DNA of 64,000 nucleotides from Neelides folsomi (lineage: Eukaryota > Arthropoda > Collembola > Neelipleona > Neelidae). The notes under the pieces were generated by a model, which searched no databases, was not told the origin of the DNA, and saw only the letters and a list, made by a program, of their open reading frames with translations. The stretch spans positions 1 through 64,000 of the forward strand of contig JAQGBZ010000335.1 of assembly GCA_034687125.1 (NCBI GenBank). The letters run 5' to 3'. This document shows positions 1 to 33,891 of the stretch, in pieces. How positions within the stretch are numbered: the stretch's first letter is position 1; every line of letters starts with the position of its first letter. A program made the translations under genes and the position numbers.

Positions 1-457
1 TGTCTCCTTCCTGAAAAATAAAACTTCACTTTTCTTGCTTTCTCTTATTTCTCAAAAATGTTACCTGTTTTTAATATACGTATCTTTCAATTCATGAGTC
101 TTCTGTTTTCTTCTAATAATCTTGTGTATTTTCCTTTTAATCAACCGACTGACCCAAGATTGGCTAATGTCCAGTTTCTTTGCCATTTCATTTTGGCCCG
201 GGGGATTCTCCATTGAGGTGAAAAGCCTCAACTTTCTGATTGTTTTCTGGTCAACTTTTCTTGGAGTTTGAACAATTGGTGGAGTAGGCAAGCCTTGATT
301 TTTTGCCCTTCTTCTGATTCCAACTTGATCTCTTATTCTGACAATTGTGGATCGTGAAATATTATGACCTAACTCTTTTAATTTTACTTTGAGAGAGTTG
401 TAAACTTAGATATGTTTTTATCATTCCTTCTAACTCTGGGTTAAGTTTCTTACCCAT
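1..457 (-). mobile_element. Tc1/mariner-superfamily transposase fragment (N-terminal part, maT-like)
   Basis: The reverse strand encodes the start of a mariner-type transposase: an ATG at 457, a first helix-turn-helix region, then a second one around positions 120-230 (KKLDISQSWVSRLIKR), followed by a basic stretch. A frameshift lies in the first 25 codons and a stop near position 61; reading resumes towards the window edge, so the element is degenerate and continues off the left end. The catalytic DDE/D domain is not in the window. A possible terminal repeat lies near 570-605, but its partner is outside, so the boundary is unproven. Wording of the HTH fits the mariner/maT group common in crustacean and insect genomes (inference). 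Confidence 0.75.
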
Positions 458-605
458 TTTATTTTAAACTTATTAAAACTTTGATTCTCTTAATTAAAGG
501 GTATTAAATAAGCAAAAGGTCATTTGGCGGTAAAAAATTAGCATATTTATGAATATTTATTATTAAGATGTCAGTATGTGTCCAAATCCAGAGCATAGTC
601 CTGTA

Positions 606-2321
606 TGTATTTGACAATCTGAATCTAATTCTAAAGACCAAAGTGGCTGTGGCTTAACTAAACATAGAAAATCCATTAAAAATTTCTTTGATTAATTCGT
701 TTTTTGCCTGAATATTTAGTAAGGTCTTAATTAAGCTTAATATGTATACGTACTTGTACTTACTGCCTGTAATTGAATTCTGTAAATGCTCATGAATAGT
801 TATTTTACAGAATTATACTTTGCGAATCTAATAATAATGGAGTAATTTAATAATATGGTAATAATGGCAGAGAATCATTTATTTGGTGTGCTTATTATAA
901 TAATTTATTAATGACTTGGATGAGTCACTTTGTATACGATGCACTTATAAAATTGTGGTATATAATACCTAAAAGTATTATGCACCTCTGTAAAATATTT
1001 TTACTATTATTTGCCATAAAAAGGGTTTATTTAGTTTCAATGAAAAGTATCCACAGTTGAACCATATTCTTGGATGCAATTTGGGAACAAGGTTACCTTT
1101 ATTTGGGCATATTTACAAGAACATCCAACGAACATTCATATAAGCAAACACTTAATTATGGTAATTACAGACATGGAATAAATACGCATATTAGACATCA
1201 ATTCCAACAAACTACATTCTTAATACATGTTATGGATATGTACGCCAATACACGCGTTCATAATTATTATGCACCGTGTGACATTGACACTTACCGTTAT
1301 TTTATTATTTATAAAATCTATTCAACCCAATGCAATGCATTGCAATGTCTAAAAATATAAATGTGAACTTAACAACCTCTTCACAATGGATTTCAACTTC
1401 AACCTTACCCATTAAACTTTAACTTTATGATAGGTATTTATGAACGTAATTATAGGACGGTAAATTATGGATAATTGTATTAGCGGCTACACGTGCTTGA
1501 AATGATAAGATTAATTTTTTATAAAATATCTTGTATAGTATAGGGGCATTCCTTATTATTTTCATGGTGTGTGCGTAAAATATGTATGTGCACTATAATA
1601 AATATACTTATTTTATAGTTGGTTATACACATGTATTACCTTATATTAAAAGTTATTGTTATGTACGATTGGATATGTTAATGTTCGGGGAATCTTTTGC
1701 CGTTAGAAAAGAAAGCTAGGAGAGATTATAATGGAACGGTTAAACTGCAGCTTTGTATTTCATGTATGAAGTGTTAACTTTGTCTTAAAACTCTGTAAAC
1801 TTTTTTGTTGTAAAATAATTTATTAATGGTCTAGATATTTTTACTCTTCATAGTATGGCAGTCCTACAATGACAATTTATTTAATTATTCTAATTTATTA
1901 TACTAAATGTAAGTTATACACATTATAATCTTACAATTTATCAAATATCACAAAGTACAAAAAATGAACAATAGACTATATTATTTTTAGTAGATAAGAA
2001 CTTTGTAAAAGATTTTATTCAATTTACTCATTAAGTTATAAATAGACAAAAAGTTAATGTTTTTATTATAATATCCGTAAGTAATGAACCTGCATTTTAA
2101 TTAATTTTGTAAAAAGCACCTTATAATTATAGCTAACTTGTACAAGTCTATAATATATTATCTTATTAAGAACTTTTTAGAATTTTCATACTTAGAATAA
2201 GGAAAATGCTTATAAGCAATAAGATCATTTAAGTTATTGAATTCGGGCCAATAGAAGAAGATTAAATATCTATGAGCATTAAATTTACTTTGTATGGGAG
2301 GTTGAAAAAAAGTATTGTAAT
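606..2321. other. AT-rich spacer, no gene seen
   Basis: No ORF with domain-like content or coherent splice sites was found on either strand. A 96-codon ORF at 1070-1360 is low-complexity and isolated and is not considered coding. The right end is the 3' flank of the CLC-7-like gene. Confidence 0.6.
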
Positions 2322-5300
2322 TCATCTATCTAAAATTGTAAGTTCTTCCAGACGCATTTTGCCCATGTGAGTTTCAACTCGATATCTTGCTAGGTCCTTT
2401 CGTGTTACAATTCCTACAACCTAAAAAACCAAAAAAAATATTAGCTAAAATAATTCGCGTACTTAGAATTAAAGATTGAAGTTGTAGCCAAACTAAATAA
2501 ATTATTGTAATACATTCAAAACTATCAAAAAACTTACTTCGTTGTTATCATTAACGATGACAAGATGCCTTAGTCCCAATCCACGGAATAATTTAAATAT
2601 TCTCGGTAAAGAAGCATTCTAAAAATATTAAATAATATAAGCATAATATAATATTAATATAAAATGAAACGGCAAGTACTTATAGGTAGTACAAAAATTT
2701 TTTTTGATATATTAAACAACATTGAAATTAAAATAGTTAAATAAAATAATACATGAAGTGCTGTATAAGGAGCAGGATTCATAATGGGACGAAGATCAAC
2801 AGTGAAAAATCTTTCTTCTTCAGATATGTGAACTTGCTATTGTAATAAAAAATAAACATTGATCAGAATTAGGATAATTAGAATATTCAGCATATGAATA
2901 TAATTTAAAGGTGTTAAGATTACTTGAATAGATGGAAAACGAGGATAGGCGTCTCTGAAATACTTCAACGTAACTCCTGAATGATTCCAAGTTTCAGCTG
3001 TTTCGTTAAAGAGTTTATGCTGAAGGATAACAATGAGTTGCGATCTCAATATTAACCCTCGAAAAGTTCCAAAGTTTCTCTGTATAAAAATTAAAATAAC
3101 ATTATGCATCTTTCAATTAAGCCTGTCAAAATTACCACAATGGTGTTAGATCCTGAATATTAAGTAATCATAACTTACCCCGTCATCTGAAGTTGGGTTA
3201 TCAACAACAGGAAATCCATTGTAAGTCTCTCTTGTTAACGTGTCAATGATCTTCCCAACCTTTTCAACAGAATTTAAAGTGGATACAGGGCAACTCATCA
3301 CTTCAGTTGCGTAGATATTGTGAGATAATGGAGGTGGCTGCCACGGTAAAATTGGAACTCCCATCAGGTGGATATGAGTATCGTAAATTCCCTATTCAAT
3401 TACAGAAATTCATTATTTGAATGATAGGATACGAAATACCAAAGATAATTGATATGTTTATATAAAGTAAAGAAATGGAAATCATACATCATTGAAATAA
3501 TCTCCGACCCATTTTGATATCATGAGCGTGATCATCAATGGAAGACCAAGGGACAAATTCCCGGTTGCCTCAATAAGAATTACTGTCAAACTTATTGTCA
3601 TTCGCACAACGCCTCCCAATTGAGCGGCTGCTCCAATTAATGCATATTTCCCAGGGTCAACCCAAGACTAATCATTTAACACGTATATTAAGATCACTTA
3701 AAATCTTTAACTTTAAGGTGAAATGTAAATAAATGTAATAAATTACCTTTTCAGGGAAAAAATATTCCATCCCCATTCCCACAACTCTACCCCATGCAGC
3801 ACCAGTTAATAGAGATGGAATGAATAAACCACTTGAAACGCTAAGTCCGTATGTCCAGCACGAGAGAAGAAAATAAACAGTGAAAAATATCAAAATAGAA
3901 GTAAGTTTATGCGATCCTGAAAAGATAAAGATAATTAATTTCCTGTGAATAAATGCAAACTAAATAGAAGAAAAAGAACTAAAAGAATAATAATTTCTAT
4001 GTCCATTTATTATGATATTCACCTGGTGGATCATGAAACAAAGACCGAACACTTGCTTCGGGAGTTTGAAACCAAATAGCACCAATGGTACTATACTGTC
4101 CGTCCCCGCAATACATTTGTATTGGAAATTTGGTAGGGTCGTCTCCAATGGGTTTACAATCACTAATGAAAAGGATCATAGTGAATCCAACAGTGGCAGT
4201 TATAGCGGCAACCATTAAAGCTTCTACGACTTTGGCCCAATTTCGGTAAATATGTCTGAAAATACATTTTAATGAAATGAGTTTTAAAAATATTATCAAA
4301 AAGTTAAAACAAGATTAAATTCTTTATATTTAAGTTGTATTATTACCGCATCCTGAAAACAGTGAGCTTGTAATTAATAAAATTGAAAAGTGCACCAAGA
4401 AGGCCACCAATTACTCCCATCAACAGAAAGACAGGAATCTCAATGAAATCGTAACTAGTGTTGTCAAATTTTCCAAAATTCAAAAGTCCGGCGTATGTTA
4501 ATTCACCTTCAGAAACAATATAAAGAATGTAAAGAATGTAGAGAAAGTATACCAATTTTGCGTAAATATAAGGAAATTATAAAAAATAAATTGTAATTTT
4601 AAAAGATAAATAAAATATGAAAAACATTCACCTGGTCTTCCGTGATAAGCACTTAATACAACGTTAAGAGTAAAAGTGGAAACCATTGAACCAAAAAATA
4701 TTCTCCATGTTAAACCTTGGTTCCAAAAACTTGCTCCTTCTTCGAGACTAAACAATACACCACCTATGGACGTCGAAAATTTTAATTATTGAATAGCTTA
4801 CAATTTAGCCAATAAAATAATAATTTAACCATTCATTTATTAACTATACTAGATTTTTCATCTTGGATTTGTAATTACCAACGGGAGCCCCAAAGGCCGC
4901 AGCGACTCCGGCTGCTGCGCCACCAGAAACAAAATCTCTCTTCTCGTGATCCTCGCGAAAATATTTAAAAATCTTAAAGTCTTTTCTGAAAGACGTCGTT
5001 TTTCCTTGAGAAATTCCGGCTGCCACAACTGCACCTGAATGGATCATTGGCCCTTCCTATACGGTAAAATTAATATCAGGATTTTCCAATATGGTTATCA
5101 AAATATTATATAAGTGACATATTATTAATATTACCTTTCCAACAGCCAATCCTCCAATGACGGAACATGTAACTCCAATTGTCTTAACAAGTAGCGTTTT
5201 AATACGAACAATCCTTGGAATTTTAACTCCATTAAGGTAACATTTGACTTGCGGAATTCCACTGCCAGCAGCTACGGGCTATAAACACAAAATATTAGAA

Positions 5301-6249
5301 GAAACCTTATTAATAGCAGTTTTTACATTTATTTAAATATAATCTATTTATATTTGTAATTTATTAATCAAACCATCAATAATATTGTAGAATTTATAAC
5401 TGACCTCGATGAAAACCACCATGCAGACGGAAATTAAAACAGGAATGACATTCCAAGTAATCCATAAGAAAAACGGAACGTAAAGACAGCCGTCAACTAT
5501 GCATTGGTCCACTTGGTCCTTCAGCATTTTGTATTTTATCGAAGAAACTTCTTCTATAGAGATGTCAATGGTAGAGGCAATGAGAGCTGTCAAGACGCCT
5601 ACGAAAAACATTATGATCCATCTGTAGAGATCTTTTCTAGAAATGAACCGAAATCCTTTGGTTCTCTCTTCGTCAATCAATAAAGTATTTTCGCAAACGT
5701 CATAGTCCAAACTCTATAATAATAAAAATATATTATTAATAATTATTTAATTGAAAACGTTAAATAGTTTAATTACAATTAACATCAAAGTTGAGTAAAT
5801 ATAACAAATCATTTCATACCTCGTATTTTGCCGAGAGTAAATGGAGATTTCCAGGTTCCATTTTCTTAACATTGATGCTTTCTCTATCATTAAAGAGTGT
5901 TGAACTTAAGGTTTCAGATTGACTCCAATAACTTCCATCATCTCCGCCCGTTCGACGAGATCGAGAACCTCTGCGATCAGCATCGAAGGACACGCTTGCC
6001 TCTTCCTCCGTCGTGGTTGAGGATAGGAAAGAAAACTCGATCTGTGCAAACCAAGAATTATTAATTTTATTATTAATTATTTTTACAATGTAAATTGCAC
6101 CATTTAATAGGTGTATGGTATCATTTATATTTATATCCATACAAGTTTTATTGAAACAACAAACATACAGATTCGTATTCTCTTCCTTGTGTTGAAGGTT
6201 TATGGCTAGCACTCAACAGTGGAATTGATTCGTTAATATCCACACTCAT
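2322..6249 (-). CDS. CLCN7: CLC-7-type lysosomal chloride/proton antiporter
   Basis: Fifteen exons: 6249-6169, 6041-5820, 5713-5405, 5278-5135, 5056-4879, 4763-4632, 4506-4347, 4255-4023, 3916-3747, 3667-3488, 3391-3179, 3079-2924, 2836-2753, 2618-2538, 2420-2322. The product is 813 aa, close to vertebrate CLC-7 (about 805). Family marks: GSGIPQ and [10 protein letters not shown] with gating glutamate (residue 253), the [12 protein letters not shown] segment carrying the proton glutamate (about residue 320), [15 protein letters not shown], and two C-terminal CBS domains. The N terminus has an acidic dileucine signal, ESIPLL, of the type that sends CLC-7 to lysosomes. By family knowledge it exchanges 2 Cl- for 1 H+ in lysosomes or late endosomes with the OSTM1 beta subunit. 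All splice sites are GT-AG and phases agree. CLC-6 is the alternative, but the cytosolic loop and EEGASFWNQ wording favour CLC-7. Confidence 0.93.
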
Positions 6250-7304
6250 TATTAAAAAAATTAAAAACCAAACTTTAGCAAGCCGTAAAAATTATTTTTC
6301 GATGTTTTAGTTAAAAGTTCAATGATAAGGGTAAAATTCATTTGGTATGTACGTACTAATTTACATATAAAAATATGAATTGGATAATTTTTAGCCATAA
6401 TCACGATCGCTTCCAAATTTTGTGGTTTGTGGTTTTACTTTATTAGGTAGTATTTTGGATTAACAGCGTAGATTTGATATAAAAGTAAAAGTGCCAATAC
6501 GGGTAATTTATTATTAATAAATAATAATTTATAAATTAAAGATAACATTCTTATACATAGAACTATGTATACGATATAAGTACGAATATTCAACAAGAAT
6601 ATTCAATCTAGCAATAAGAATATTTAAGAATGCTTAAAATGAAGAATGTGCTTTTCTAATAATTGTAATCCCATCGCATCGTCATCATACATTTTCGAAG
6701 CTAAAGATTAACCACCATGTACAAATAGTAGTATAGTCGAAATGAAAATATATAAAACGGTATGGTATAAGTATAAGTATAAATAATTTCCTAAAGAGGA
6801 TGACTAAGAAATGAATATTTTAAATTAAGAATTACTACCATAATGTGAATATTTTATACTGATGCTCTGATGCAACATATTTAGGTATGCTTTTCAATTT
6901 AGAAATATTTCTAATACCAATAGTCAATAGCATGAAACACAATTGATTAATTAATCTCATATTAATTTTCCTTAATGCCTTAATCCATAATGGCTCGCAT
7001 ATAACTAATATAAATACATAGATTATATTATATTGTAGAACTTGATCATTTGATCATTAACTGCTCTACAGAATATTCCTTCGATAAATGAAGATAAACC
7101 TATATAATATTTATGTATTAGTGTTTGATAAGAAGAGTTTTTAATTCTCCTTTTATCCAACCTTTCTTTGGTGTTAATTTCACATTGAAAAACATAGCAG
7201 AAGGTCATCCACATCCAAAGTCATTTTGTAAAGCTTATATGAAATTAACTTTAATTATAACATTGTTTGAATTTTACATTTAATCTTATAAAATGGTTAT
7301 TTGA
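6250..7304. other. 5' flank of the CLC-7 gene, noncoding
   Basis: AT-rich sequence with no supported exon. A 63-codon reverse ORF at 7023-7214 lacks usable splice signals and domain-like content. The region probably includes the CLC-7 promoter, but no convincing TATA or other element was identified. Confidence 0.5.
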
Positions 7305-10176: not shown

Positions 10177-13100
10177 ATGGAGGAATATCGAGGGGAAGAC
10201 GGTGAGCATTATCCCAATTACAAGTTTGCATCTGAAAAGGGAATCCTCCGTAAGCCAACTCATCAGAAAACTGAAGAAATCACTGACACCCCTATTGTGA
10301 AAGTGACAACACCCACAGAGAATATATATTCAACGAATATTCGTGCAACAAATCCAACTACCGGCTATCGGGTTTATCCAATTAAGCCAACCCAAGAATT
10401 TCTTTCTTCTCAAACTGTGACTGTAAGACTATTATATAAAGACTAAGATTAATGTTTAATTTCAAGTATAACCAATTAAGCGTTTTTTTTCATGTTTTAG
10501 ATTCAAGATGCAGATTGGGGTCTTAAAGTTGGATTTACTCCCTTGGTTGGAAAAAATTTTCAAGATCCTTCTGGCAAAGATCGAGCCGACAGTCTTTTTG
10601 CTGGAAAGTTTCCAGAGCTCTACGCTAACAATTCCAATAATGGAATAAACAAAGAAGAACGTGGGATCAGACCAGGGGCGATGAATGATTTTGCAATTGT
10701 GAAAGGGAAATATGTATTTCCTTATTCAACATTTAAGCCCAAAGTCCATGTTCCTTTGCATGCAAAAGGGGAGTATGCTGGGCAAGTGGCGGTGTTTGAC
10801 CGGCTCATTAAAAAATATCGTAGATTGGAAATGAAGAAAGTTTGTGAAGGATTTTCAATCATGCAAGAGGAGTTGATCCCAATTCCAGTAAATGGAGAGC
10901 CTTATGCCAAATTTTACGAAGAAACTATGAAAAGAAGTCGAATTAAAGTTCGAGGAGTTCCTAAAAAGACATATATGGATAAATTATATGCTTTTCATGA
11001 GTTAATTAATTCACATATAATTTCAAGCTAGAATTATTTTTTAATTTTAATTTTTTAATAGAATTGTTTAATTCATTGTTATAAATCATTATATGTTCTT
11101 AAAACTTTATTATCATTATTACAGGACAAAAATCGGCAAAATAAAATTGAAGCAGCAACTAGCCAGGGAAAGATGTGATGATAAAGATGAACGCGACACG
11201 ATTGAAAAAATGGAGCCGTATGAAAAAAGATCCTCGATCTCAATTAAGGATTATGAGAAATTTCTTGCCAAATTGAACGTTGAAGAAGATCAGGAGGAGG
11301 AAGAGACGAAGCAAGACAGAGAGCGAGATTCGGAATTACGCAAAGAGCTTCTTAAAGACGGGCTCGAGCCTTTTCTTCCCTTGCACTTCTTTGACGATGA
11401 CGACTTTAACATTAGAAATCCCGAAGAGTGGATTAATTTGAGTAATTTGGCATGGAAAAAGAAGGGAAATCCCATCCCAGGGAGAGCTTTCCTCCCAATT
11501 CCTCTTGACTGCAGTGAGAGAAATAAAATACCTGATTCGAGAGCAACATACGGCCGACTTCTCAAAACAAATCCAATATTTAAGAAATTCAGAGACGAGA
11601 CTTTTGAAATTTGCAAAATTAGAAAAAAGATTAAAGAGAAACCGGAAATAAGTAAAAAAATAATTATCACAATTATAAATATTTATAAAAATAACCACTT
11701 TAATACCAACTTGGTATACTTCGTTCATGTTCGTTTCATTAAAGATCTTATTGGAAACACGATTCTATTACAATCCGAATTTGCCAAAAGTTTTGCAAAA
11801 GTCCATTTGAGCTTAAAGATCGCCAAAGAAAGGGAAGAACGTGAACAGTTGGGCTATTCTGAAGAAGAATTCAAAGGGGAGGATCATCACTATGGCGAAG
11901 GACATTCGAGTTCAGACAACTCGTCATTTGAGGAATTACCTTCGCCCAAGTTTTCTAATGAGACGATCTCTAAAACTGTTGTTCCAGCTAAATACGCTCA
12001 AGATATGTCAGCCGATTTAGAAGCCTACTACAATACGGATGATTTCCCGGATATATTCATCCCTAAGCCCAAACCTAAGGAGTAATATGAATTTCCTATT
12101 TTATATAATAAAATTTCCTCTTTTCCTATGATATATACCATAATATACTAACCGTTTTAAAATAATAATTTTTAAACTCACCAATCATTTTATTAACCTA
12201 GATTTCCGTTAGCATTTAATAGAAAATCATCGAAATTCAAAATTGGTCAAACCATCAAAAGTTCGAAATCTGCCGTGAATGTAATGTATTTCGTATTTAT
12301 ATTTATGATTTTGCATTTATGAATTTAACTTTCATTAATGTATGGATAATAAAATGATTCCAATTCATAAAATTTTAGGTGGTTCGATCGATTTTGGGTG
12401 CATATCAGGAAAAGAAGAAAATTGCAGAAAGAGAATCTCATATAGCGCCTTCCAAGCGAGCCGTTTTAATTAAAGACGAATCACTGGGAGAAGCCGAAAA
12501 AGAACACCTAGATAGAACGATAGTTGAAAATATGTTTCATGAAGATATTCATGATGAAATGGATCCATATGAAACAAACAGCGAAGAATACGTCTTTGAT
12601 TATGATCTTATGAGAAACGTTCATAATTTTACTTGGGCTTGGGTTGAAGTTGCTGTTTTCCAATATAATCCAAAGAATCAAAAGTTAGCATTATTATGAA
12701 TAAAAATTAGTTCCAATATATAATATTAAAATCTTTACATCCTTAGATAAGATTAATATGTTAAATTCAACAATGTTTAATTGAGTTTAACTAACATTAA
12801 GTTATGGAAGTATTTTCCATATATATTACATATATGAATGTTGTGAACCTTTTAGGTATTTAGTAAAGGCGATTTACGGGAAAACAATTTCTGCTTGGGT
12901 CCCAAAGATTTACCTTGTGTTTGACGGGGAGGATCCTATGGTCCATGGATGGCGTCTGAGCAATGCCCTCATCAATAGATTAAAATGCGAAAGAATGATT
13001 CGATATAACTTGTGCGTCGATAATCTTCCGATCACGAAAGTGGAACTCAAGAATTGTGATTTCCTAATGTTTGACCGAATGGTTCAGAAAATTTTTAAGC

Positions 13101-16100
13101 AACCTTCATTTTCACATTTGAATCCAATGGCTGAACAAGTAAACTAACGCTGGAATTTACTTAAAAAATATTTAAACATTTTAATTTAATTTGTTTGTTT
13201 AATTAATTAAGAAAATAATGAGATATTTGAAATAAAAGTTAAAAGGAGAATTGAGTCTAAGCTACATTCGTGTCAATATGGTTTTCGCTTTCGACGCTAT
13301 CATAAAACTGAATCCCGCAATTTCTGCTCCATGGGTTTACGAAAAAGAAGATCCCATCGAACCTTCTCCACTTCTTAAATGGGTCAAAGTTCAAAGATAT
13401 CTAGACAAGTATGACGTTCTTAACAACGACATAGAGCCAGGTCATGTTCACCATCATCATCATCGCCGTACGCGAACTTCGTCCGGGGTGAAGAAACTTG
13501 TTAAGAGATTTTCTAAATTTGATGACAAGTACATGCGAGTGAGGTTGTTGAAGAACTCGGTCATTCACAGTCAAAAGCCATGGGGCACCTTGTCCCAAAT
13601 TTACGCATTATGTCAAAACTTAGATGATGCTGATTTGATTTTCAAATCTTTTGAAAGTCCGTTAGTTCTGGACAATTATGTCAAAGCACAAGTGAACAAA
13701 ACTAAAGCGGTTGGACCTTTTATTCTTACATATTACTTAAATAATAACGAATATATTGGATTATTTATATCTTTTAATTGATATTTTTCAAAAAATTAAA
13801 AAATATAGACAATTGAATACTTAAAAGGCGAATGGATGGACAAATTAGAACAAATTGTTAGATCGAGCTTTTCAGGAAAACAAAAAGGATGGCATAATGT
13901 TGATGAAGACGACTGGAGTGAATTTTAAAATATAATATATATACTCTAATTCTTATTCTTGCTTTGATTTACCATATTTAATATTTATAAAAATAAATGT
14001 TATTTACATATAAGAATACCAATACAATTGAAAAATGTTTTGACTCTATCATCCTTTGTTCAAAGGTATGTTCGTGCTTTCTAAAACACCAAGATTCTTG
14101 AACCTGGTCAAAGTAATTATGGAAGTAAGATTTTTAAATTTATAAGATTTATAACAGTTATAAGTAGTTTTATATCATATAATGTTATCGTAATTATATA
14201 TGTTATAAATGAAATTGACTATCTTATTATTTCAAATTATATTACAGAGCAGTTTGTGGACTTTGGTTAAGCGCTCATTAGAAAACATGGTCAAATATTT
14301 TGAAGATTGTTCAAACATCAAAGAAATTGAAACTGGAGGTGAAATGTTTGACGAGCGTTTTAAAGACTTTCAATTGGAATCCAGTTTAAGATTCACACCA
14401 TATCCCACCCCAATTGACTTCGTCCCAGTGTTTTCTCTTGAGATGACCATGTGCGAGACTGGACCAACTTTTACAAACTACTTGAAAGAATTCAAGTCAG
14501 CTTTAAATAATCTTTTTAAGGAAACAATGCATGCAGCTGATAAGATTCCGGAGGTAATATTGAATTGAAACTGTACTAACATTGTAAGCTATTTTTTAAC
14601 TATTTGTTATTAATCGTTTAATATCATATAACTTGATTTAACAGTTAACTCCCATTTTGATGAGCAATTTGAAGTTTGGGGAACACAAAAACCTTCGAGT
14701 TTACAGATTAGAAATTGACATGTTTGAAATGAAAACGAAATTAATTCATTGGCTACATCTTGCTCTTGTTCACGCTGACGGATATGCTCAAAGATACAGA
14801 CGTTATCAAGGCATATGGAACATTAACATTGAAGAATCTTTAAAGTGATAAATTACATTTCTTAATACTTTCATTGATATTTTTGAGAATGCGAAATGCT
14901 AACACGAACCTTATATATAACAATGCAGTTACATTTTCAATAATTGTTTTAATTATACATTATTTCTAAAAACACATTAAAAATACCATTTTTAGTGAAA
15001 TGGTCGAAACTTATGAACAATATCTTGCATCAATTGGACATGTACATCACAGCCATGGCCATGTTGAGCCTTCAGGAGATCCAGATCATGATCATGGGAC
15101 CCAAGAGCATAAACAACACGATCATCATGAGCATCATCATGCACATGTTGAACAATTTTTTCTAGGCAAAATTGTTGAAAATAACAGCATCATTGATCAA
15201 CTTGTAGCAGATATTCCTTTTTACATTGACATCGGTCCAGTTCGAGTTGATGTCAAAGGGTTGAAAACTGCTTTGATTAAAAAACTCAAAGATTTCAATG
15301 ATCTCGTTCTAAATCATTATGCATCAATACTCCGAAATCGCGTAACAAAAGTAATATTTAAAAAGATGAATTCCTAAATTATATCACAAAATTGATACCT
15401 TGTTCAATTCTAAACTTAATCTATGGTAGAATCTAACTATATTTATATGGAATATAACTATCTCTTTGTTTTAGATAAGAGCCCATTTAGAATACATGGA
15501 CGCTAATATCAATAACACATTGGATCACATTGAAGATTTGGAAAAGCGAAAGTTCCATTTTAAAACAGCTTTGAAAGAGCTTGAACATATTATCAAACAA
15601 CTCCGGAGGATCAATCTTAAATATGACAAATTGGAGCATTTCTTCTTCTTGCCCGACTATAAACATTTAAACGATAGAATGACAGCTCTTGTTTGGGCTT
15701 ACAAACTGTTGAATCTCCTCCCAAGCTCGGAAACAAAGTTAGAGGATGATTATGATCGACTCTACAAAGCCCACGTTCAACAACTTACAGATTTGAGCGA
15801 AAGCCTCGACTCGGCCTTTTTGGTCCTTGCAGGTCTTACAGCTCATTTGGAGCTTGAAAAGTCCATCGAAGTTGCTCAGGAAGTCAAAGGTCTCATGAAG
15901 AGCATTGTTCTGATGGAACGGCAAGCTGAAATATTGAACAAAAGACAAGATATTCTTGAACAACCGCATGTGGCTACGGAGGCACTTCAAAGACTTAGAA
16001 CCGACATCGAACCCTTTAAGGTTAAATTCCTTTGATTTCCACTAATTAAACTAATAATTTCAAAATGTTTATTAAAGTTGATTTACATTCTAATATGAGC

Positions 16101-17670
16101 ACTAACATTTAAAATTTTCTTGTTTTGTAGCATTTGTGGTACACAGCCTCAGAGCTTGTTCGACTCAAGAATGTGTTCCAAAAAGATACATTGAATAAGT
16201 TAGACATGGATACTTACACGAGACTCGTCAAAATTGGAGGTCACGTTATTAAGAAAAGCATAGAAGGATTCAGAGAAAATGGAGTAATTCAACAATTAGC
16301 CCAACAAGTTGAACATCAAATTGATTATTTCAAAAAAATCCATCCTGTCGCTGACATTCTCAAGAGTAATTACATGAGACAGAGACATTGGGAACAGATT
16401 TCAGAGATATGCGGTAAGGAAATTTTACTTATTCTAATTTTCTAATGTTTGTTTAAAATGAAAAAATTTATATGTTTTTCTTTAAAAAATTTAGGGTATA
16501 CCGTTGTCGTGAAAGCTTCGGAGCCTGTTACTAAAATCCTTGATCAAAGATTAATTGACAATGCGGAAGCAATAGGAGTTGTGGGAGCCCAAGCTAAAAG
16601 TGAAGCATTGCTCGAAGATGAACTCTTACTAATGTCAAGTGTAGCTGAATCTTGGCGTGTTGAAACTGAATTGGAACTTGGTGAGGAACGGACAATTCTA
16701 ATACAATCAGCTAAGAATTCATTTGTTTAAGAATACGTGAGATGCTTACCATATAGATTATTTGTTTATAATAATTTTATAACTATTATTATTCCAAATT
16801 ACAAGGTCAAGAAAAGGTGATCATATCCAATCTTGTGAGAAGAAAAATAAGATATTTCATGAAAGAGACGGACAAGATGCTCGATAATCCGAATAAAACC
16901 GTTTTCGTCGACATTCTTTACCCATGGGAAGCCAAAATTCACAAAACAAAGGATGTCGTTGAAGGATTTTTAGAAATCCAAAAGGCGTGGATTGAGATGC
17001 AAATGATGGTCGTGCCAAGCAAAGAGAATTTGGAAGAAATGGCCAAGGGCCTTCCCAATGAACATAAAATGTTTTTTAAACTGGATAGAATTTGGAAACG
17101 AATCATGAGATTAATTAACAAAGACCGAAAGGTGATTTTACTAATTTCATAATGTAATTATTTAATCGTTAAGAAAATTATTTCATTAATTACTCATTTG
17201 CCATATTATATTATGCTAAATTATACCTTATTCTCATATGTATAGTATATATAGAGTACAATATACTATAAATCTTATTATACCCTAATATTAATTTACA
17301 AAATATGAGGAACATTAAATAGAGGTAGTAGTTTATTGTAAAATTATTTCTAGTAATTAATACATAAATTGATTATTTATTATATATAATATAATGTACA
17401 TTTAATATTTAGATCATGACTTGGAGCAATGACTCAACTATCATCGTGAGTCTAGTACAGTTTAGGCGAATTCTCCAAGATCTTCAAATAAAGATTGATG
17501 AATTCATGAGTAAGAGCGCTTTCGTCTTGGATGATGAAAAAGACGAGAAGCGAGAACTTCAATTAAAGGAAAAGGAACAGAAAGACATGGAGGACAAAAT
17601 GATGGCCATAAGTTCTTGGAACATGGATAATGTGGCTGCTAGTGCTGAAGAATCTAAAATAAAATTTTAA
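10177..17670 (+). CDS. Motorless axonemal dynein heavy chain, DNAH1-like tail and partial linker
   Basis: Seventeen exons, all GT-AG with agreeing phases: 10177-10422, 10501-11000, 11125-12081, 12223-12280, 12379-12683, 12856-13138, 13239-13691, 13809-13917, 14066-14124, 14248-14553, 14645-14844, 14996-15350, 15475-16020, 16131-16413, 16495-16680, 16806-17131, 17413-17670. They encode 1,809 aa (1,778 if an in-frame 93-nt intron-like stretch at 11652-11744 is removed). DNAH1-type landmarks in order: FDDDDFNIRNPEEWINL; WVPKIYLVFDGEDP; KGWHNVDEDDW; then the linker with RQRHWEQISEICG and LDRIWKRIMRL (about residues 1707-1718). The protein stops at EFMSKSAF plus about 50 charged residues, just where family members continue with AFPRFYFLS and the AAA+ ring (DNAH1 is about 4,300 aa). 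No P-loop follows on this strand before SMC2. Two His-rich inserts lie near residues 853-861 and 1174-1211. Likely a tail-domain protein that can bind dynein partners but not hydrolyse ATP (inference). Confidence 0.85.
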
Positions 17671-17756
17671 AATGTCAAATTATTATGTAATGTTAATTTA
17701 TTAAACAAAATTGTATGTAAATTAATCTCAAATTAATCTTAGAGCTTAACTTACAC

Positions 17757-18804
17757 CTAACATTGAGTCCTGGGATCTTCTCCCAGTAAATCTTTCCCTG
17801 GTTCTTCTTGAGGTTGAAGAATTTGAGATTTTGCGGCATTTAATGTTACTTTGAAAGTGTTGCAAAAATTATAAAGATTCAAAAGCCGTTCCTGGGTTTT
17901 AGAAGTTCTTTTCATTATGTTTTCGAAATATTCGAGCTTTTCGACTTTCATTCTAATCAACTCTTTATCTTCGCCAACAAAATCGTCTTCTGAGATTTCA
18001 ATTTGGAGCAAATTCATTTTCTCTCGCAGCTCAATTTTGTTCTATTATATAATACATCGGAAAATATTATATTATAATAAGAATAATAATGGACAAATTA
18101 AATATACAGGATGTACTCAAAATTTATGAATTACATATTAGTATTTGGTGTTTATTTAGTATTACGAACAATTGCAGTTGACAAATATTTTACTACTATC
18201 ATATTTGCATAGGTATAATATTGTACTATTTAAAATATAATTATTTTTTCACCAATTCACGTAAAGGATATTATTCATCTACCTTAATACCATTTGCAAC
18301 AAAGGCATGAAAATTTTCAAAAAAATTCATTTCTCCGGCCGATTCTTGGACTTTCACTGTACGTTTCCTCCCGATGTTTTTCATTGTTTGCATCATTTTT
18401 AAAGCAATTGTCCATTTGTCAAATTCTTCATATTTTAAGACGAACTTTACAACGAACTCAACTGCCATTTTTAGTCCTCCATTATTCTGATATTCCAACG
18501 GAAGATTCGACATGGACATTGCTATACTTTTCAATGTAGTTCTTGAACTATTATGGCTTTCCATGAGTTTGGACATCATGTCGTCGATAGAAATCCCAAG
18601 GTACTAAAAATTCAATTCAATTCATGAAATATAATAAAATACAATACAATAAAATTGATAGAAAACGAATGTGATTTTGTTGGGTAAAAATTTGCCTACC
18701 CAAAAGACGACGTTGTCCATATCTTCACGTGTAATTTCTCCTTGTTCTGAATCTGAATTCAAGTGTACTCTGTTATTGACAATTTGATGATTGCTCCCGC
18801 TCAT
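17757..18804 (-). CDS. Unrecognised helical, charged protein, 236 aa
   Basis: Three exons on the reverse strand: 18804-18700, 18603-18283, 18041-17757, all phase 0 and GT-AG. The protein begins MSGSNHQIVNNRVHLNS, is rich in Lys, Glu, Met and Asn, has no signal peptide or membrane segment, and contains likely helices (ELREKMNLLQIEIS, LIRMKVEKLEYFENIMKR) that could form a short coiled coil. The end is GEDPRTQC. I do not recognise the family. Its stop lies 87 bases from the stop of the dynein-tail gene, so the two converge and their 3' UTRs probably overlap; this placement rules out a directly continuing dynein motor on the + strand. Confidence 0.75.
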
Positions 18805-20393
18805 CTTCTATTAAACTTGTCACTTTCACTCTATTTGCAATTCACTAAGTCGTATTTTACTAATAAAAATAAACTCGTAATATTATAAAATTATAATGAA
18901 TATCTTTAGTTTTGACTCGGAACTCTTTAAGACTCATGACGTCATGACGTGCGTTTGAAATACAAAAGTATATAACAAAAATGATATATTTTAGAAAGTA
19001 ATTCAAGGACGCGTTTTGGGGCATCAATTAGTGTACAATGTGCTTTAACAAATTATGTATGTACCGTTTTTCATTATACCTAAGTTATGAGATTTTAGAC
19101 ACTAGGTATGCACTATACTAGGTGTCCAATGTTAGGCCAATTATTTTTTCAGTTAAACTTGGGCGAATTTTCTATGACCATATTCTGATTTAACTTGGCC
19201 TTATGTGAAATAATTGAGTATATTTTATTAAAATTAGCCATTTCGATTGAAAATGTTAGAAAATCATTTTAATGAAGCAAAATATTTATTGGGAACGAAA
19301 CGGGAACCGGGGATTGTTTTTTGAACTATCATGGTAAAATCATGGGACACTTATAAGCACTTTTACAGGGAAATTTTGCATCGGTAGATAAAGCGTGATA
19401 GGTATATAGGATATTACATACACGCCATAGATATATCAAAGCATCATTATATTATACTTAAAATGTAACACAAAATTATATTTATATAAAACTTTTAACC
19501 TTATATTATGTGAACAATTTGAATGGTAATTTGGTAAAAAAATAAAGTACGAGATATCGTATGATATCCTTGTTCATATCAAAATAACAACTACTAATTC
19601 GATTTTAGAGTTAATAAAGGTAAATCATTGAAAATATTCTATAGATCCATAAATTGTGATAATTAAGACAATTAGTATTGACATTGTGAATACGTACATA
19701 GTAGTTTTATTATACGCACCTTCAAATCATAAATTCAAATCATAAAAACATTTATTTATTTTATTTTCATAAATTGAACTTACATTTAACTGTGTATAAA
19801 ATATTTATAGTGAAGGTCGCGCAATAAGCTACATGTGTTACAATTGCCAATCAAGTCATTTTATATAATCAATTGCTTACTATTTGCAATGATCTCTGAA
19901 TCTCAATGAAACTCAAATTCAAATTGAATTAACATCATCAGCAACCATTTTTATTTAATTGTTGCGTACTATCTACTAAAATACAGTAGTATGTGAATAC
20001 CTAGTATGTACCTAACCTATATAAATATGAATAATTCAATGATCAATCACTGAAATGCTTAATATATTGTATTATTATTCCTAAAATAGGTTTATTGATA
20101 TTCTGTTTGAAAGAGCAGATCTATCTGTATAAAATGTTATGTATAATTAAGAGAAAGTTGTGATCAAATCAAACTAGGTATTAATCTGCTCTGTACCGGT
20201 ATACTGTTCGCATTCAAATAATATTTAATGTAATTAATTCTGATTATTAGATTTAATAATCAGGTAATTTTGTATTCAAACTAAAGGTAAATCTAATCCC
20301 ACTTATGAAGTTAACGAACTATATAGTAGTGCTAAATATACATTTAGGATGAATGAATTCACTATGAATTATTCACTTCCTTCTCTGAAGGTT
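18805..20393. other. AT-rich spacer, no gene seen
   Basis: No supported exon on either strand. It probably holds the promoter of the leftward 236-aa gene near 18805-19000 and the 5' region of the rightward secreted-protein gene. Confidence 0.5.
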
Positions 20394-25500: not shown

Positions 25501-28500
25501 AGGAGGTACACGAAGAAATCTAGGGAAAAATATTTCAATTGCAAATGATATTCGAAACCTCAATATGGAATTGAGGGAGTTGGAAGGAAAGATCAGGAAG
25601 TTGGAAATGAGATTGCAAAATTGTCAGCGGTGAGGAATTCATAAATGCAAAATATTCATAGATTTTACTTATTATTCGGTGTGAGTTGGTTGAAATGACA
25701 ATGTTTTATTATTTAATATAGGAATGATAAATTTCTTCAAGAATACGCCATTGCAGAGAAACAATTGCAAAACTGTATACAAACACGAAATTTGACCGAT
25801 ACTGCATGTCTGGAAGCTGAAGTTGCTGCTCTTACAGAAAGCACAAGTGAGTATATTTTAGTTGTGTTTGTTTCAAGCAAGTTAATTAATATTAGATGGA
25901 AGTTTATATTGGAAATTGTTTTGTTTTAAATTAGAACGACGTCAAGAATTCATCAAGGAGTCAATGAAGGAAGTAGGGAAGCGCAAAGGTGAAATTAAAA
26001 CGTTGAAGGATCAAATGATGAACATGTCGAAGTTGAAAAACGATTCTCGGAAGCAGATCGCAAATCGGATTAAAAAAGCCACTGCGGCTTTGGCTGCCGC
26101 CAATGATAAGTACAATATTAAAAAGAAATCGTTTGATGAAATCGATCTTGAATTGAAAGCAAAAGAAGATTTTCTTCAAGGCCTTCAAGCTGTAAGTTCT
26201 TTAATTTAAATGATTTTCTTAAGTATCTAGAATATTTAACTTACTATTTCCTTAATATAAAAATTACCCTTTAATATCGAATAAAAACATTAAGTGCTGG
26301 TAAAGTAGAATCAAACATTATCATTATGTTTATCGTGATTTAAAGGACATTGAAAGAGAAAAGGAAGAGGAAAGAAATGCTTCCGAAAGGGAAAGAGCCA
26401 AAATTGTTCAATGGGAACAAATTAAAAAAGTGTTTGATACTGCGGAAGCCAAATTGAAAAAAGCTCAGGAAGAAAGAGATTCATGGGGAAGGGAACGTGA
26501 GGCCTTGGCCAATGAAATCAACGACAATGAAGCGGAAATAAACAAAATCGAATGTGAGAAGGAAAAGAGAGGACATGAAGAAAAGGAGATTCGTGCAAGA
26601 TTAGATGGTGAAATTATTTATTTTACATTATCGCGTGAAATATTTGCTTATTATAACATATTATGTATTTGTAAAATAGTAATATTTTTCAATTTACTGT
26701 TTGTTTAGGATTGGAAAGAGAGATGAATGAAATGGAGGAAAAACATCGAAACATGAATTTCAACGAAGAAATGGAACCTCCAAGCAGAAAATCTATTGAA
26801 GTGAGCGAATAACATTAACGTTCATTAATAATTAATTTTCAATTTGAGTTTATTCAAAAATTATTTTGTTTTTATTAATTTTATATACAAATATTAAATG
26901 AATTTCATATTTTCAGCTCCTGAAGCGTGAAGTGGCTCATATGAATAAAAAACTTGAAGAAATGAGAGTGAAGTTGGACAAAGAATCTGCTGATATGCTG
27001 CAGTCTACAAATGATGCCGTTTTACAATCTGAAAACAAGATCAAGCGAATCACATCAAACAAAATCAAAATAGAAGCTGCCATTGATGAACTAGATAAGC
27101 AAAAGGTCGAGAAATAATCCTAATATAAACATATTTTCAGTTTGTCTTAACATTTAATGCTAATTGTATTTATATTCTATCTCAGCTCGATATCGTCTCA
27201 AATGCTTACAATCGAGTCAATGATGAATTTAATACAATGATGTCAACACTTTTGCCTGGATCTCAAGCCCGCCTCGTACGTGCAAATCCAGATGATTTGA
27301 GCGAAGGGCTAAATGTAAAGAACAAATACAAAATATTATTCATTTGCATAAATATAGAAGTTATTCCTAATTATTGGGAATCCGTAACAGTAATAATGTA
27401 ATAAATTATAGAATAATGATACCTGTATTAAATTAATTTGTTGTGAAATTGTTTTATTTTCTAGATCCACGTGTGCCTTGGTGGAGTTTGGAAGGAATCA
27501 TTGACTGAGCTGAGCGGTGGGCAAAGATCTCTTGTTGCACTTGCTCTTGTTCTTTCACTCTGCATGTATTCCCCAGCTCCATTCTACATTCTAGATGAAA
27601 TTGATGCAGCTCTTGATATGAGCCACACACAAAACATTGGATGTTTGATTAAACAAAAATTCACTGGAACTCAGTTTGTCTGCGTTTCGTTGAAAGACGG
27701 TAAATTGTCAATTATACAAATGATCATTCTCTTATGTACTAGATGGGGCGTTCAAAGTGTCTGACTTGCCCAATTTTTACCTTTCTTTGCCTTTTGCGAA
27801 GGCTCCCCGCCGCCCCCTTCATGGGGAAGGCACTGCCACCCGTCCCGCCCACCCACGCCACTTTTATTAAACGCCAGAAATCAAAATGGTGACCACCAAA
27901 CAAAAGCGCGGTGCAATTCAAACTTCAAATCAAAATTTTCAAGTTTTATAAGATTTTTACAATTGAAGCGCACTTTAATAAGCAAAACGATAAAAATTAC
28001 GCAAAATCTACCAAGGATATTAATGAGAAAAGTTACTCGTCAGCAACATCCAGCGTCGGTAATGGTTTGGGTTGGGATAAGCTGGAGAGGGAAGACCAAA
28101 CTTCCCTTTGTCGAGCATGGTGTGAAGCTTCGTGCAACGAATTACCAGCCCGATATTCTGAATCGATTGTTCTTCCACTCAACAAAGGCCTTTTTGAAGA
28201 TAAAAACTAGACATTCATGCAGGATTCTGCCCAATCCCATCAAGCAAAGCAAACTCAGGAATGGTTGAAAAACAACGTTCCCAATTTCATTTCTAAGGGA
28301 GATTGGCCCTCGGCGTCTCCAGATTTGAACCCATTGGACTACGAGATATGGAGTAAGTTGGAGCTGGATGCCTGTTCAAAGTGTCATGCAAATCTGGTAA
28401 GCCTCAAAAAAGATTTGAAGAAAGCATGGAAGAAATATCCAATCGTTCAAATTTGTTCTGCAATTGACATGTGGATCCCGCATCTTAATGAGTGTGTCAA

Positions 28501-29506: not shown

Positions 29507-30560
29507 TTGGTCCAATTTTGCGTAAGGCTCTTTGAAATAGGTGAAATGGATCTTTCATCTGGGAATTGTGTCACACATTCAATTTCATCAATAATCCCAT
29601 CCAGTCCTATAAATGAACTTTCCACTTTACTTCTTCTCTTGGCAATTCCTAGTTCAAAAGCTGTATGGAATCGAATTACTTTAACTTCAATGACATCCAA
29701 ATGGTATTTCAGACTCTCACAATTTGAACTCATTTTTGTGGAACTCATCGTTATGCAGGTCTAAACACATAATTTATAATACTTCTTTAATAATAAGCAT
29801 TGTAGAATTGTGGAATTTGACTTTAATTATAAGATAAATGCAATTTGAATAAATATTGTGTATTTCCAGATTTTCATTCTTCGCTATTTGGAAATATTGC
29901 CTTTAAATCTAAATGATCTTTTTGTTGGAGATCCTGCAGGAAGAAAGCGACGAGAAGCACCAGAAGTAATTATTGAAAAAAATCGTTTAGCAGATACAAT
30001 GTTTTCCGTAAGATGCTTTTTTTTATTTCTTATACAAATTCTCCTTTACACATTACACGTCTTAAAATACTACTTACTACATTTATAGGTGTGTATTAAT
30101 ATACATAAAAATGCATCGAGTATAGTATTTATGTTTAATTTTTTACAGATTTTAAGAAGACTTGATGAAGAGGATTGTTTCTTAAGAACATTATGCGAAT
30201 TGGAATTCGAATCATCGAAAGGACTAAAATTAAAAGATACAACACGATCAACACTTCAAGCTTTAAAAATGTAAAAAATAATTTGATTTAATTAGATTTT
30301 GATTTGGAATTTTGTATTTTTTAAAAAAATAATTTTTAAGGTCTGCAAAAAAGAGAAATCGATACGAAATGACCCCAAATAATGTGACAATAGAAGAACG
30401 AACTTTAATATCTGTTTTTGAAGAAGCTGTTGAAATTGGTAGCGTTTCAAGCAAATCAAATGGAAACTCTACATGCGGCATTCGATATACTCTTTGTTCC
30501 CTTGAAACAAACGATATTCTTTTTTATATTGACAAAATTGAAAATGCTGAATTTTTTTAA
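29507..30560 (+). CDS. DM4/12-domain protein, copy 1
   Basis: Four exons: 29507-29758, 29870-30007, 30149-30270, 30341-30560; 243 aa (230 if the ATG at 29546 is used). Intron phases are 0, 0, 2. The C-terminal half has the DM4/12 pattern: LRRLDEEDCFLRTLCELE, then FEEAVEIG and NSTCGIRYTLCSL, giving two conserved cysteine pairs. The N-terminal part has a hydrophobic stretch (STLLLLLAIPSS) followed by WYFRLSQFELIFVELI. A basic KRR lies between the halves. The family is widespread in arthropods, usually predicted secreted or membrane-linked, with no established biochemical role. Start codon uncertain. An antisense ORF over exon 1 is a shadow, since the plus-strand reading matches the neighbouring paralogue. 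Confidence 0.75.
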
Positions 30561-31109
30561 ATTACAAATACATTGTTTATTTAAAATTGCCATTCTAAAT
30601 GACACTATAAGAATTAAGGATATTTATGGTTTCATTCATATTTAGTTTGAAATGACATTTACGAGATAAGAGTTAAAGTTTTCAGTTGATTATATGTTTG
30701 ATATTTAAAATTCCCTTGAATAAAGTTAAATTATTAATACAAAAAACACAAATAAGTAATATATGTTTTATACAAATATTTTGCTTTGCATATTTCATAC
30801 AAACGAAAAATAACTTATGAATCAATATAATTTTATGCACTGATAAAAGGTAAATGTTAATTATGATAAACACTACACAAACGTATATTATGTAGGTATA
30901 AGTATAATACAATGTATGTATGTCAGTAAGGGATTATGTAATGACCAGATTATAATTTTTAACGGGTATAATAAATTGAATTGATTGACGAAGCAAATTC
31001 ATTTCTTAAATGAGCAAAAATCATAACATTCATTTCTTAACAAGTTAGAAATATTCCAACAAAAAATACTTTTAGAATCCAAGTCAAAAGGAAATTTCCC
31101 CAAAGGGAA
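30561..31109. other. Spacer between the tandem DM4/12 genes
   Basis: AT-rich, no exon seen. Short enough that the second gene may be driven from within it. Confidence 0.5.
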
Positions 31110-32104
31110 ATGTCAAATCTCTTAAACTTTGTTAAAGAAGAAGGAATTTCTTCCTTATTTCTTTTGCTGTCTCTTGAACCCCAAAATGTAAATGGAGGAC
31201 TTTTCACAAGAGTGACAATGACTTCTATGACTGGTGCTTGGTATTACAGACTCACTCCATTCGAACTCATCTTTTTCCAATTGCTCTTATTTAAGGTAAT
31301 AAACATTTGTATTGGAAGATTTCCGTAGTTGATATCTTTATATAATTTTATTTAATAGTCTTCATTTAACATGTCTGTTTTACCATTTATAGATTTTGCT
31401 CTTTCGGTATTTTTTGGTCCTGCCTATTGATTTGAGCAATCTCATTAAAGAACAAAATGTGCTTGGTAGGAGGAGGAGGAGGAAGAGAGAAGACTATGAA
31501 AGCAGAGCAAAAAAAGAACTACTAGGAAATACAATTCTTTCAGTAATTAAAATTACATGGATTGAAATGAAATATTGCTAATATTGGTTTTTGAACATTA
31601 GAGTTTGAGGCGACTGGATGAGCAAGATTGCTTCTTAAGAACACTTTGTGAGTTACAATGGAATTATTCAAATGGGTACAAAATTCCTAACTCTGTAGAA
31701 TCAATAATTCTCGGGCTAAAAAAGTATGGTTCCTACAATTAATAATAAAATTTTTATATTTAATATACTTTTTATAATTTAAACGATCTACCAAACATAA
31801 TTAAAATAAATACATACTTATGAAATATTGTATATATATTTTTTATTGTGAAATTGAAATTATGTACCTTACACATAGAAGTGGAACTAAAAGAAAAAAG
31901 ATGGAAATTCCAAATAATCGAACAATTATTGATAAACCGATCGTCTCTGTTTTTGAAGAAGCTGTGGAAATTGGAAACTTTGGATTTGCAATAAATAACA
32001 ATTCCACATGTCAACTCCAATATTCACTTTGTCCATTAACATCTGAAGAAATTGTTTCTTATGTTCATGATATGTCATTAGATGAATTAATAAATACCAG
32101 TTGA
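31110..32104 (+). CDS. DM4/12-domain protein, copy 2
   Basis: Four exons: 31110-31295, 31393-31542, 31602-31723, 31879-32104; 227 aa. Intron phases 0, 0, 2 and exon layout match copy 1, which proves tandem duplication. Shared landmarks: LEPQ/AIPSS then TMTSMTGAWYYRLTPFELIF, LRRLDEQDCFLRTLCELQ, SVFEEAVEIG, NNSTCQLQYSLCPL. A run of basic residues (GRRRRRKRE) sits before the Cys-containing half, a possible furin-like processing site if the protein enters the secretory path (inference). Exon 3 is the same length in both copies (122 nt). Function unknown. Confidence 0.78.
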
Positions 32105-33891
32105 GGATAAAATAATGATATTTGAAAATCGACAATTTATTCTTTTTTAAACAGACAAACATGAACTATAATAATGGAAATATGAATATTGTAAATACCT
32201 AATAAAAATGTATTCTTTTACTTCTTTTGTGTCGGACCATGATTATATTAATATTTGAACCCATTCATTTTGCCATATAAAATATGCACAATAGTTAACC
32301 ATGGATCGAATATTATTTCATTGCATGAGTGCATCTTTTAATGGAAGGTTATTATCCGAATTTACATTCAAATAAAAGAGCAGAACACGCAAACAGAAAT
32401 TTAAGTCCATATTATTAAGAAGTTATGAACCATATATCATATACAATAGACAATATATTAACCCTAGCAAGATATAATATTTAAGAGTAGCATATCTTTT
32501 GCATAAGGATAAAAATCATGAAAAATTGCCAAATGTTTGCAATACATAGATGTAGGCATAAAGAATATAAAGTTGTATATTCAATTAATATACAAAGGAT
32601 ATACTCTCCAGACGCCGAACCAATGCAGTTCCCGGGTTTTAGAATTTGAATAAGTTTAGTAATTCAAATCAAAAACCGCGAAATGCATTGGCTCAACGTC
32701 TGGAGAGTATCTTCTTACTCATCTTAAACAGAATTTTCTTATTTAATTTTTTAACACAACTAAAATGAACAACAATCAATAAAATCAAGCAGTGCAATCC
32801 TAAAAGAGGTAATAAATCATACATTTATAGAATTTTTATTAATGCTACTAATATAATAAATGATAAAAAATTTACGGCGTACAAGTGCATATTCTAAAAT
32901 GGAAAATCAGATAAAATGTTTTTATTTTCTTGAAAAATGGGAGATTTCAAATTAAAAATCATTTTAATATCAAACAAGATTAAACATTTTTAATAAAAAT
33001 GACAGGAAGTTGAAAAAATTCACCTTTGGTTGACTTTTATTGAATTTCATCTTTGTGAGAAATGAATACAAGCAAAATGATAGGCATAGCATTTTATTTA
33101 AACATGATTAACTATTGAATATCAAGAGAGTTTGAGATTATTTAATTAAATTTAAGTAAATCGATAGCGTAGAATTTAAATAAAATGTCAATTATTATTC
33201 ATTTGGTGATCTTAAAATAATATTAAATATTTTACAAATAATGTTTAATCGCCATTCCATTCTCCGTTCAGGAAATCTCATGTACAATTTATCGCTATAT
33301 TTAGTCATTAAACAATTTTTTATTGAAATAAAAGTTTTAATTAATTTCAAACTGCAATTAAATTATTATACTGACAATGAGAGATTGGAAATATACGTAC
33401 TTTTATAATTATATTTATATTGTAATATTTTCCTAGTTCTATGTGTATGTACATCATACAAGTAGATTCTACTATATAATCGATATTGCAGCGCAACATT
33501 GACCTGTATCAGTAATTTTATCACTTTTAACAACAAAGGTTAACTTACCAGAAATGAGCTGATGAAATATGAAGCATACATACCAATTAGATTAAGGATT
33601 CAAACTGTTCAAGTGCATTACTTAATTTATCAGTATCACATTTGGATCATATGAAAAAATACATCCTGTGGTGTATAGTTTATGTATCTATAATGATAAA
33701 ATTTCAAGATTAATAAACACGTGAAATGATACACAATCACACATATTGGATCGGTTGAATATAAATGTTAATTAATAATTCTGCGATTTGAAAAATTTCC
33801 AATTTACGTTCAAACTATGGCATAGGCTTACTTAGAACCAATAAATTTTTCGGTTGATTTACATTCTTAAATAAAAAAATATACATTAAAT
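32105..33891. other. Spacer with a foldback element, no gene
   Basis: No supported exon on either strand. Contains the inverted-repeat element at 32604-32707 and the 5' flank of the XK-related-like gene. Confidence 0.5.
32604..32707. mobile_element. 104-bp near-palindromic foldback element, TA-flanked
   Basis: The left half, from CTCTCCAGACG at 32604, and the right half, ending CGTCTGGAGAG at 32707, fold into an imperfect hairpin of about 45 pairs with a loop near AAGTTTAGTA. TA lies on both sides. It starts with CTCTC like the element at 21437. There is no ORF. A hairpin RNA precursor is an alternative but nothing else supports it. Confidence 0.75.

Follow-up and report, generated by a model that had tools for sequence, protein, structure and literature searches.

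Can an axonemal dynein heavy chain gene that stops short of its motor be a gene in its own right? The question is raised by a locus at positions 10177 to 17670 (+) of a 64,000-nucleotide stretch of the genome of the collembolan Neelides folsomi (the window, i.e., bases 1 to 64000 of the 69,523-bp contig JAQGBZ010000335.1, here C335), in which an earlier note, made from the letters alone, had described a headless dynein heavy chain. Our analysis confirmed that observation as real. From its exons and splice sites, the locus reads as an intact gene of 18 exons, with a coding sequence of 5,358 nt for 1,785 aa; the only stop codon is the terminal one, all 17 introns are of the GT-AG type with consistent phases, and the 5,358 nt and 17 introns contain no disabling mutation (stop, frameshift, or splice defect). 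The introns measure 78 to 281 bp and have a G+C content of 19%, versus 38% in the exons. What the earlier note had said of the content, a DNAH1-like tail followed by most of the linker, was borne out, whereas its count of 17 in-frame exons was revised to 18, because the segment from 11652 to 11744 is better read as an intron; the frame stays unbroken even if this segment is retained. A stricter exon predictor, whose training set was partly the window gene itself, returned the identical 18 exons except for one donor (13709 versus 13691, same phase), for a path of 5.4 kb with a score of 1028. Run on four controls (the window gene and contig C33, discussed below, each on its reverse strand, plus two 7-kb pieces of the window), it gave paths of at most 2,226 nt with scores of at most 261, or none. 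A first, home-made predictor had been discarded, having broken the window gene, used as a control, into 24 pieces and being able to slip round stops.

By sequence similarity, the gene encodes the tail and most of the linker of a heavy chain of the DNAH1 class (inner arm d [IDAd]). Searches of PDB chains with phmmer, seeded with the window protein, placed the DNAH1 chains of three entries at the top (235, 227, and 220 bits) and Chlamydomonas DHC2 behind them (153 bits), followed by three chains labelled "putative dynein heavy chain" (142, 114, and 82 bits) and DNAH12 (77 bits). The match spans the tail and the linker and ends near human DNAH1 residue 1325; two N-terminal segments also align, weakly (15 to 20 bits each), within human DNAH1 residues 240 to 474. 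In the tail, identity to human DNAH1 is 23.4% for C335, compared with 14.6% for the chain on contig C66 and 8.3% for that on C399 over 108 columns. The Pfam DHC_N2 profile is recognized only as far as its position 278 of 403, being seen in exons 15 and 17 in single-exon scans, and a profile search with DHC_N1 gave no match to the window gene. The single-exon Pfam scans of exons 1, 3, 7, 11, 14, 16, and 18 recovered no dynein domain, with exon 14 being recognized as dynein by the PDB search.

The 3' end of the gene shows where the chain leaves its family. The last exon reads ...IDEFMSKSAF, then VLDDEKDEKRELQLKEKEQKDMEDKMMAISSWNMDNVAASAEESKIKF, and then the stop. In an alignment with the genome's other chains, the first part of this exon lines up with the last helix of the linker, and we read the window protein as departing from the family at the column where the FPRFYFLS landmark starts. 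What follows is an extension of 48 codons (VLDDEKDEK...KIKF) with an exon-like G+C content of 37%; the charged tail and stop of the earlier note are there, but the tail is 48 rather than 50 residues long. FPRFYFLS, the mark of a complete linker, is absent from the three plus-strand frames between 17500 and 17900. A frameshift at this end was considered and rejected, with the other two plus frames of the same interval holding nothing motor-like by eye. The words AATAAA at 17658 (inside the frame) and ATTAAA at 17700 prove little, because they are common in such DNA. As the earlier note had it, a convergent open reading frame (ORF) has its stop at 17757, 87 bases from the dynein stop; that it belongs to a gene is presumed. 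Small convergent ORFs continue from 17757 to 18807 (-), are coiled-coil-like, and presumably form one gene; three of them were searched against Pfam and gave no match.

We then asked whether the missing motor lies elsewhere in the assembly (GCA_034687125.1; 75.1 Mb in 840 contigs), which was searched in six frames, exon by exon, with five motor families (AAA_6, AAA_8, MT, Dynein_C, and Dynein_heavy), the best candidates being scored. None of the five gave a match on C335; the absence of both the AFPRFYFLS landmark and the AAA1 P-loop, as first noted, holds. Neither a second DNAH1 tail nor a full-length DNAH1, for which the earlier note had proposed a genome search, was found in the assembly; beyond the window gene, the search for DNAH1 copies gave only C674, C399, and C122, at 22 to 32% identity. 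AAA_6 matches occur on eight contigs, and on every one of them DHC_N2 lies upstream on the same strand. Since DHC_N1 was matched on five of the eight (not on C399, C674, or C453), the statement that these loci have their own N-terminal parts is restricted to linkers and does not extend to whole tails. Seven of the loci were compared with PDB chains, and each best matches a class other than DNAH1: C122, cytoplasmic dynein 1; C66, DNAH2; C500, DNAH5/8; C117, DNAH9/17; C399, DNAH7; C674, DNAH3/7/12; and C453, a divergent DNAH6-like chain (130 bits versus 121 for DNAH2). The eighth, C44, looks like dynein 2 by a motif. A 4,730-residue PDB chain labelled CFAP57, the second-best match of both C33 and C500, we take by its length to be DNAH8. 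Taken together, the intact frame and the lack of a matching motor in the assembly support the claim that the headless DNAH1 chain is kept as a protein, as the earlier note had proposed.

Some side observations attach to these loci. The DNAH6-like chain of C453 (about 30000 to 43000) is very divergent and has motor matches but none to Dynein_C; it keeps the AAA1 P-loop and the DE of Walker B and reads SIP where four other chains have MNP, and its sensor-I region is altered. The two-headed inner arm contains both DNAH2 and DNAH10; DNAH2 is present (C66), and no DNAH10 chain was recognized among the motor loci. Across the assembly, 39 matches to the cuticle-protein family Chitin_bind_4 agree with an arthropod source.

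A second case, found in this genome too, lends further weight to the observation on the window gene. Contig C33 (345,861 bp) carries at its start (1 to 6782) a chain of the DNAH5/8 type (135 bits to DNAH5 with one exon), the 5' end of which is cut by the contig start. An open, phase-consistent path of 16 exons and 4,782 nt runs from the contig start to a stop, with a score of 846, far above the controls given earlier; the stricter predictor missed the exon at about 2245 to 2379, the preceding intron of 59 nt being under its limit. The protein ends in ...GFLEHKYWSPVVPTQK, and its last 9 residues lie past the point where it departs from the family, an alignment column that it shares with the window gene. 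The bases CATAAGTACTGG resemble a former splice donor through which the frame now runs. None of the five motor searches gave a match on this contig. Like the window chain, the C33 chain consists of a tail and linker only and is followed by minus-strand ORFs. Unlike it, it belongs to the outer-arm gamma class, has a less diverged linker (0.85 versus 0.35 bits per position) and only the 9 residues past the shared column, and coexists with a motor-bearing paralog, C500.

How old can such a cut be, and has the remaining chain changed its pace? A neutral-decay estimate puts the probability of an intact frame at 0.012 for 1% neutral divergence without indels and at 0.00034 if there is one indel per ten substitutions, so that a relic would have to be very young. 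The agreement of the splice phases, from which the earlier note had argued for selection, is real, but by itself it only bounds neutral decay and leaves room for a very recent loss. In relative-rate tests on the linker, the count of unique changes is higher for C335 than for C399, C674, or C66 in all five comparisons (p from 1e-6 to 0.02, uncorrected, on alignments that are short and not mutually independent), with the control pair C399 and C66 at 22 versus 22. The C33 chain differs from its paralog C500 in the same direction in three of three tests, with p<0.05 in one. Scored as bits per DHC_N2 position, C335 (0.35) and C453 (0.40) lie below the other eight chains (0.76 to 1.27), these values coming from 23 of 27 rows; the four that were not used belong to C66, C399, and C117.

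The most likely explanation, ahead of a recent loss and then of an assembly fault, is that the DNAH1 tail persists as a structural subunit without a motor, located at the base that IDAd shares with its neighbor IDAg on radial spoke 3, a reading to which we give about an even chance. In human and Chlamydomonas axonemes, the tails and subunits of IDAd (DNAH1) and IDAg (DNAH6) form one complex at this spoke (PMC10266980), and the position of each inner arm is described as being set by the divergent N termini. Because the two tails merge there, a tail without a motor should still fill the d half of the base. The window protein would be made and would occupy the inner arm d place via its tail, which would be retained to hold IDAg and radial spoke 3 while the motor of the d site was shed; the linker, no longer swinging a motor, would have drifted. 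That DNAH1 and the DNAH6-like C453 have the two most diverged linkers would fit a change of the whole d/g pair. The DNAH5/8-type chain of C33 may do likewise in the outer arm. More tentatively, and with the balance leaning against it, one may generalize that this lineage uses genome-encoded motorless heavy chains as fixed axonemal parts, with a DNAH1 tail serving at the IDAd/IDAg base and one of the DNAH5/8 type serving in the outer arm; each would have shed its motor at one and the same point of the linker, and evolution would have parted docking from force production. Loss of the motile axoneme as a background to all this is not supported: a radial spoke head family and the GAS family of DRC4 both have matches in the assembly, the GAS search also giving sub-cutoff matches in 4 of 14 control prokaryotes.

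Several results weigh against a motorless subunit of this kind. The aligner placed the extension, past a gap of 7 residues, on the region behind FPRFYFLS, with little identity, and the 48 residues are possibly what decay has left of it. Over the first part of the linker, it is C399 (38.1% identity) and not C66 (23.6%) that is closer to human DNAH1 than the ortholog C335 (27.4%). When human DNAH1 serves as the third sequence, the counts of unique changes are 39 versus 58 (p=0.067) and 30 versus 34 (p=0.71), where a clear advantage of C335 would be expected, because human DNAH1 is its ortholog and not an outgroup. C453 is as diverged as C335 and yet has motor matches, so that acceleration need not follow truncation, and its assignment to DNAH6 has narrow margins over DNAH2. 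The p28/DNALI1 light chain family (PF10211) gave no match in the assembly, in a search without a working positive control.

The nearest rival holds that the motor half was deleted lately and that the tail is a disappearing relic; this we regard as unlikely, though a serious contender. It would accommodate the fast evolution of the C335 linker and the degenerate look of the DNAH6-like partner C453, with its lack of a Dynein_C match and its SIP for MNP, and PMC6367277 reports no DNAH1 ortholog in Drosophila and an apparent one in Apis. It has to be squared, however, with 5.4 kb free of defects, which leave a neutral time since the loss of roughly less than 1% divergence, with the exon-like composition of the extension, and with the same cut above an open frame in C33. 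A fault of the assembly, or very distant exons, by which the motor would be misjoined, lie beyond a very long intron, or be unassembled, seems improbable. Gaps in dynein genes do occur here (the genes on C674 and C117 are cut short by the contig end, and orphan C-terminal ends lie on C159 and C224), and because the assembly is incomplete an unassembled motor has to be reckoned with. However, no motor match is seen in the 52 kb (C335) and 339 kb (C33) past the break, the introns of the window gene are all short, the gene has its own stop and an adjoining convergent ORF, the eight AAA_6 loci already possess linkers, and two faults at one alignment column would be a strange coincidence.

Two further possibilities take up suggestions of the earlier note. 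In one, the tail acts as a regulator or competitor, taking up the d site to the exclusion of motor-bearing arms or titrating light chains. This would suit a chain that has the docking half only, but the full-length DNAH1 with which it would compete was not found in the assembly, and we think it very improbable. The other, a split dynein whose motor is a separate gene joined by trans-splicing or protein association, is the least credible of all. Dynein chains are among the trans-spliced split genes of Giardia, where the occurrence of such genes is reported; here, however, the search for a linker-less motor gave none, all eight AAA_6 loci having DHC_N2 upstream on the same contig, and seven of them match other classes best by PDB, with C44 judged by its motif only.

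If the structural reading holds, its interest lies in what inner-arm dyneins rarely allow. The force and tail roles of an inner-arm dynein are hard to separate, and mutants often lose both; a natural chain with a tail and without a motor would separate them. The window chain could represent an intermediate, with the full DNAH1 of other animals on one side and the lack of DNAH1 in Drosophila on the other, and a cut shared by two chains of one genome would suggest an evolutionary route that can be taken repeatedly. A heavy chain that can dwindle to its docking part would also caution against equating dynein genes with motors, and the DNAH1 anchoring half together with a second chain cut alike suggests that motor proteins may be kept as fixed structural parts. 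Among the papers listed by a literature search, none was on a naturally encoded headless axonemal heavy chain, most subscription papers being outside its scope, which makes it weak evidence of novelty; truncated chains might also have been missed in the survey of Wickstead and Gull (PMC2239267), because a score threshold was used and sequences under 1,000 aa were removed. Our scan of prokaryote genomes for related sequence gave one locus, in Chryseolinea (35% identity over 70 residues), which was set aside as a chance coiled-coil match, and the scan of viral contigs gave none.

Features of the window gene and its convergent neighbor
Feature	Positions	Strand	Basis
Exon 1, start codon at 10177	10177..10422	+	gene model
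Exon 2, N-terminal region	10501..11000	+	gene model
Exon 3, contains FLPLHFFDDDDFNIRNPEEW; weak alignment to human DNAH1 240-284	11125..11651	+	gene model, PDB search
93-nt intron (or retained), frame-neutral, 21.5% G+C, GT-AG	11652..11744	+	gene model, composition
Exon 4	11745..12081	+	gene model
Exon 5, 79 nt, required for phase	12202..12280	+	gene model, predictors
Exon 6	12379..12683	+	gene model
Exon 7, weak alignment to human DNAH1 from about 353	12856..13138	+	gene model, PDB search
Exon 8; alternative donor 13709, same phase	13239..13691	+	gene model, predictor
Exon 9	13809..13917	+	gene model
Exon 10	14066..14124	+	gene model
Exon 11, DNAH1-like tail	14248..14553	+	gene model, PDB search
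Exon 12, tail	14645..14844	+	gene model, PDB search
Exon 13, tail; first part histidine-rich, outside the DNAH1 alignment	14996..15350	+	gene model, PDB search
Exon 14, end of tail; best PDB matches DNAH1	15475..16020	+	gene model, PDB searches
Exon 15, start of linker (DHC_N2)	16131..16413	+	gene model, Pfam
Exon 16, linker	16495..16680	+	gene model, Pfam DHC_N2 search, PDB search
Exon 17, linker, DHC_N2 to about position 278 of 403	16806..17131	+	gene model, Pfam
Exon 18, first part, final linker-like residues ...FMSKSAF	17413..17523	+	alignment
Exon 18, second part, charged 48-codon C-terminal extension and stop; no Pfam match	17524..17670	+	gene model, Pfam
Convergent ORF, presumed last exon of the neighboring gene; no Pfam match	17757..18041	-	ORF list, Pfam

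Elsewhere in the window, an 18-bp repeat (core AATTGCCGG) forms three arrays at 43578 to 44085, near a carboxylesterase exon (42301 to 42645). By eye, 48699 to 50995 (-) looks like a cytosolic HSP90 gene, and the ORFs at 64 to 405 (-), 27765 to 28265 (+), and 63104 to 63607 (-) resemble transposon or gag remnants; the latter two gave no Pfam match.

Set beside its closest known relatives, DNAH1 and Chlamydomonas DHC2, the window chain shares the sequence of the tail and linker, and possibly the two weakly aligning N-terminal segments. It differs from them in being without the last part of the linker, in that no AAA ring, stalk, or C-terminal domain was found, and in having its own 48-residue extension and a fast-evolving linker. 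The truncated beta and gamma chains of Chlamydomonas strains assemble. Laboratory strains of this alga with a beta or gamma chain without the motor domain are in use, and oda4-s7 and oda2-t (outer-arm beta and gamma chains; PMC11496786) resemble the proposed case in that a motorless heavy chain sits in a living axoneme. They are laboratory mutants of outer-arm chains, whereas the window gene, known here from its sequence, would be an inner arm d chain encoded in this form by a wild genome.

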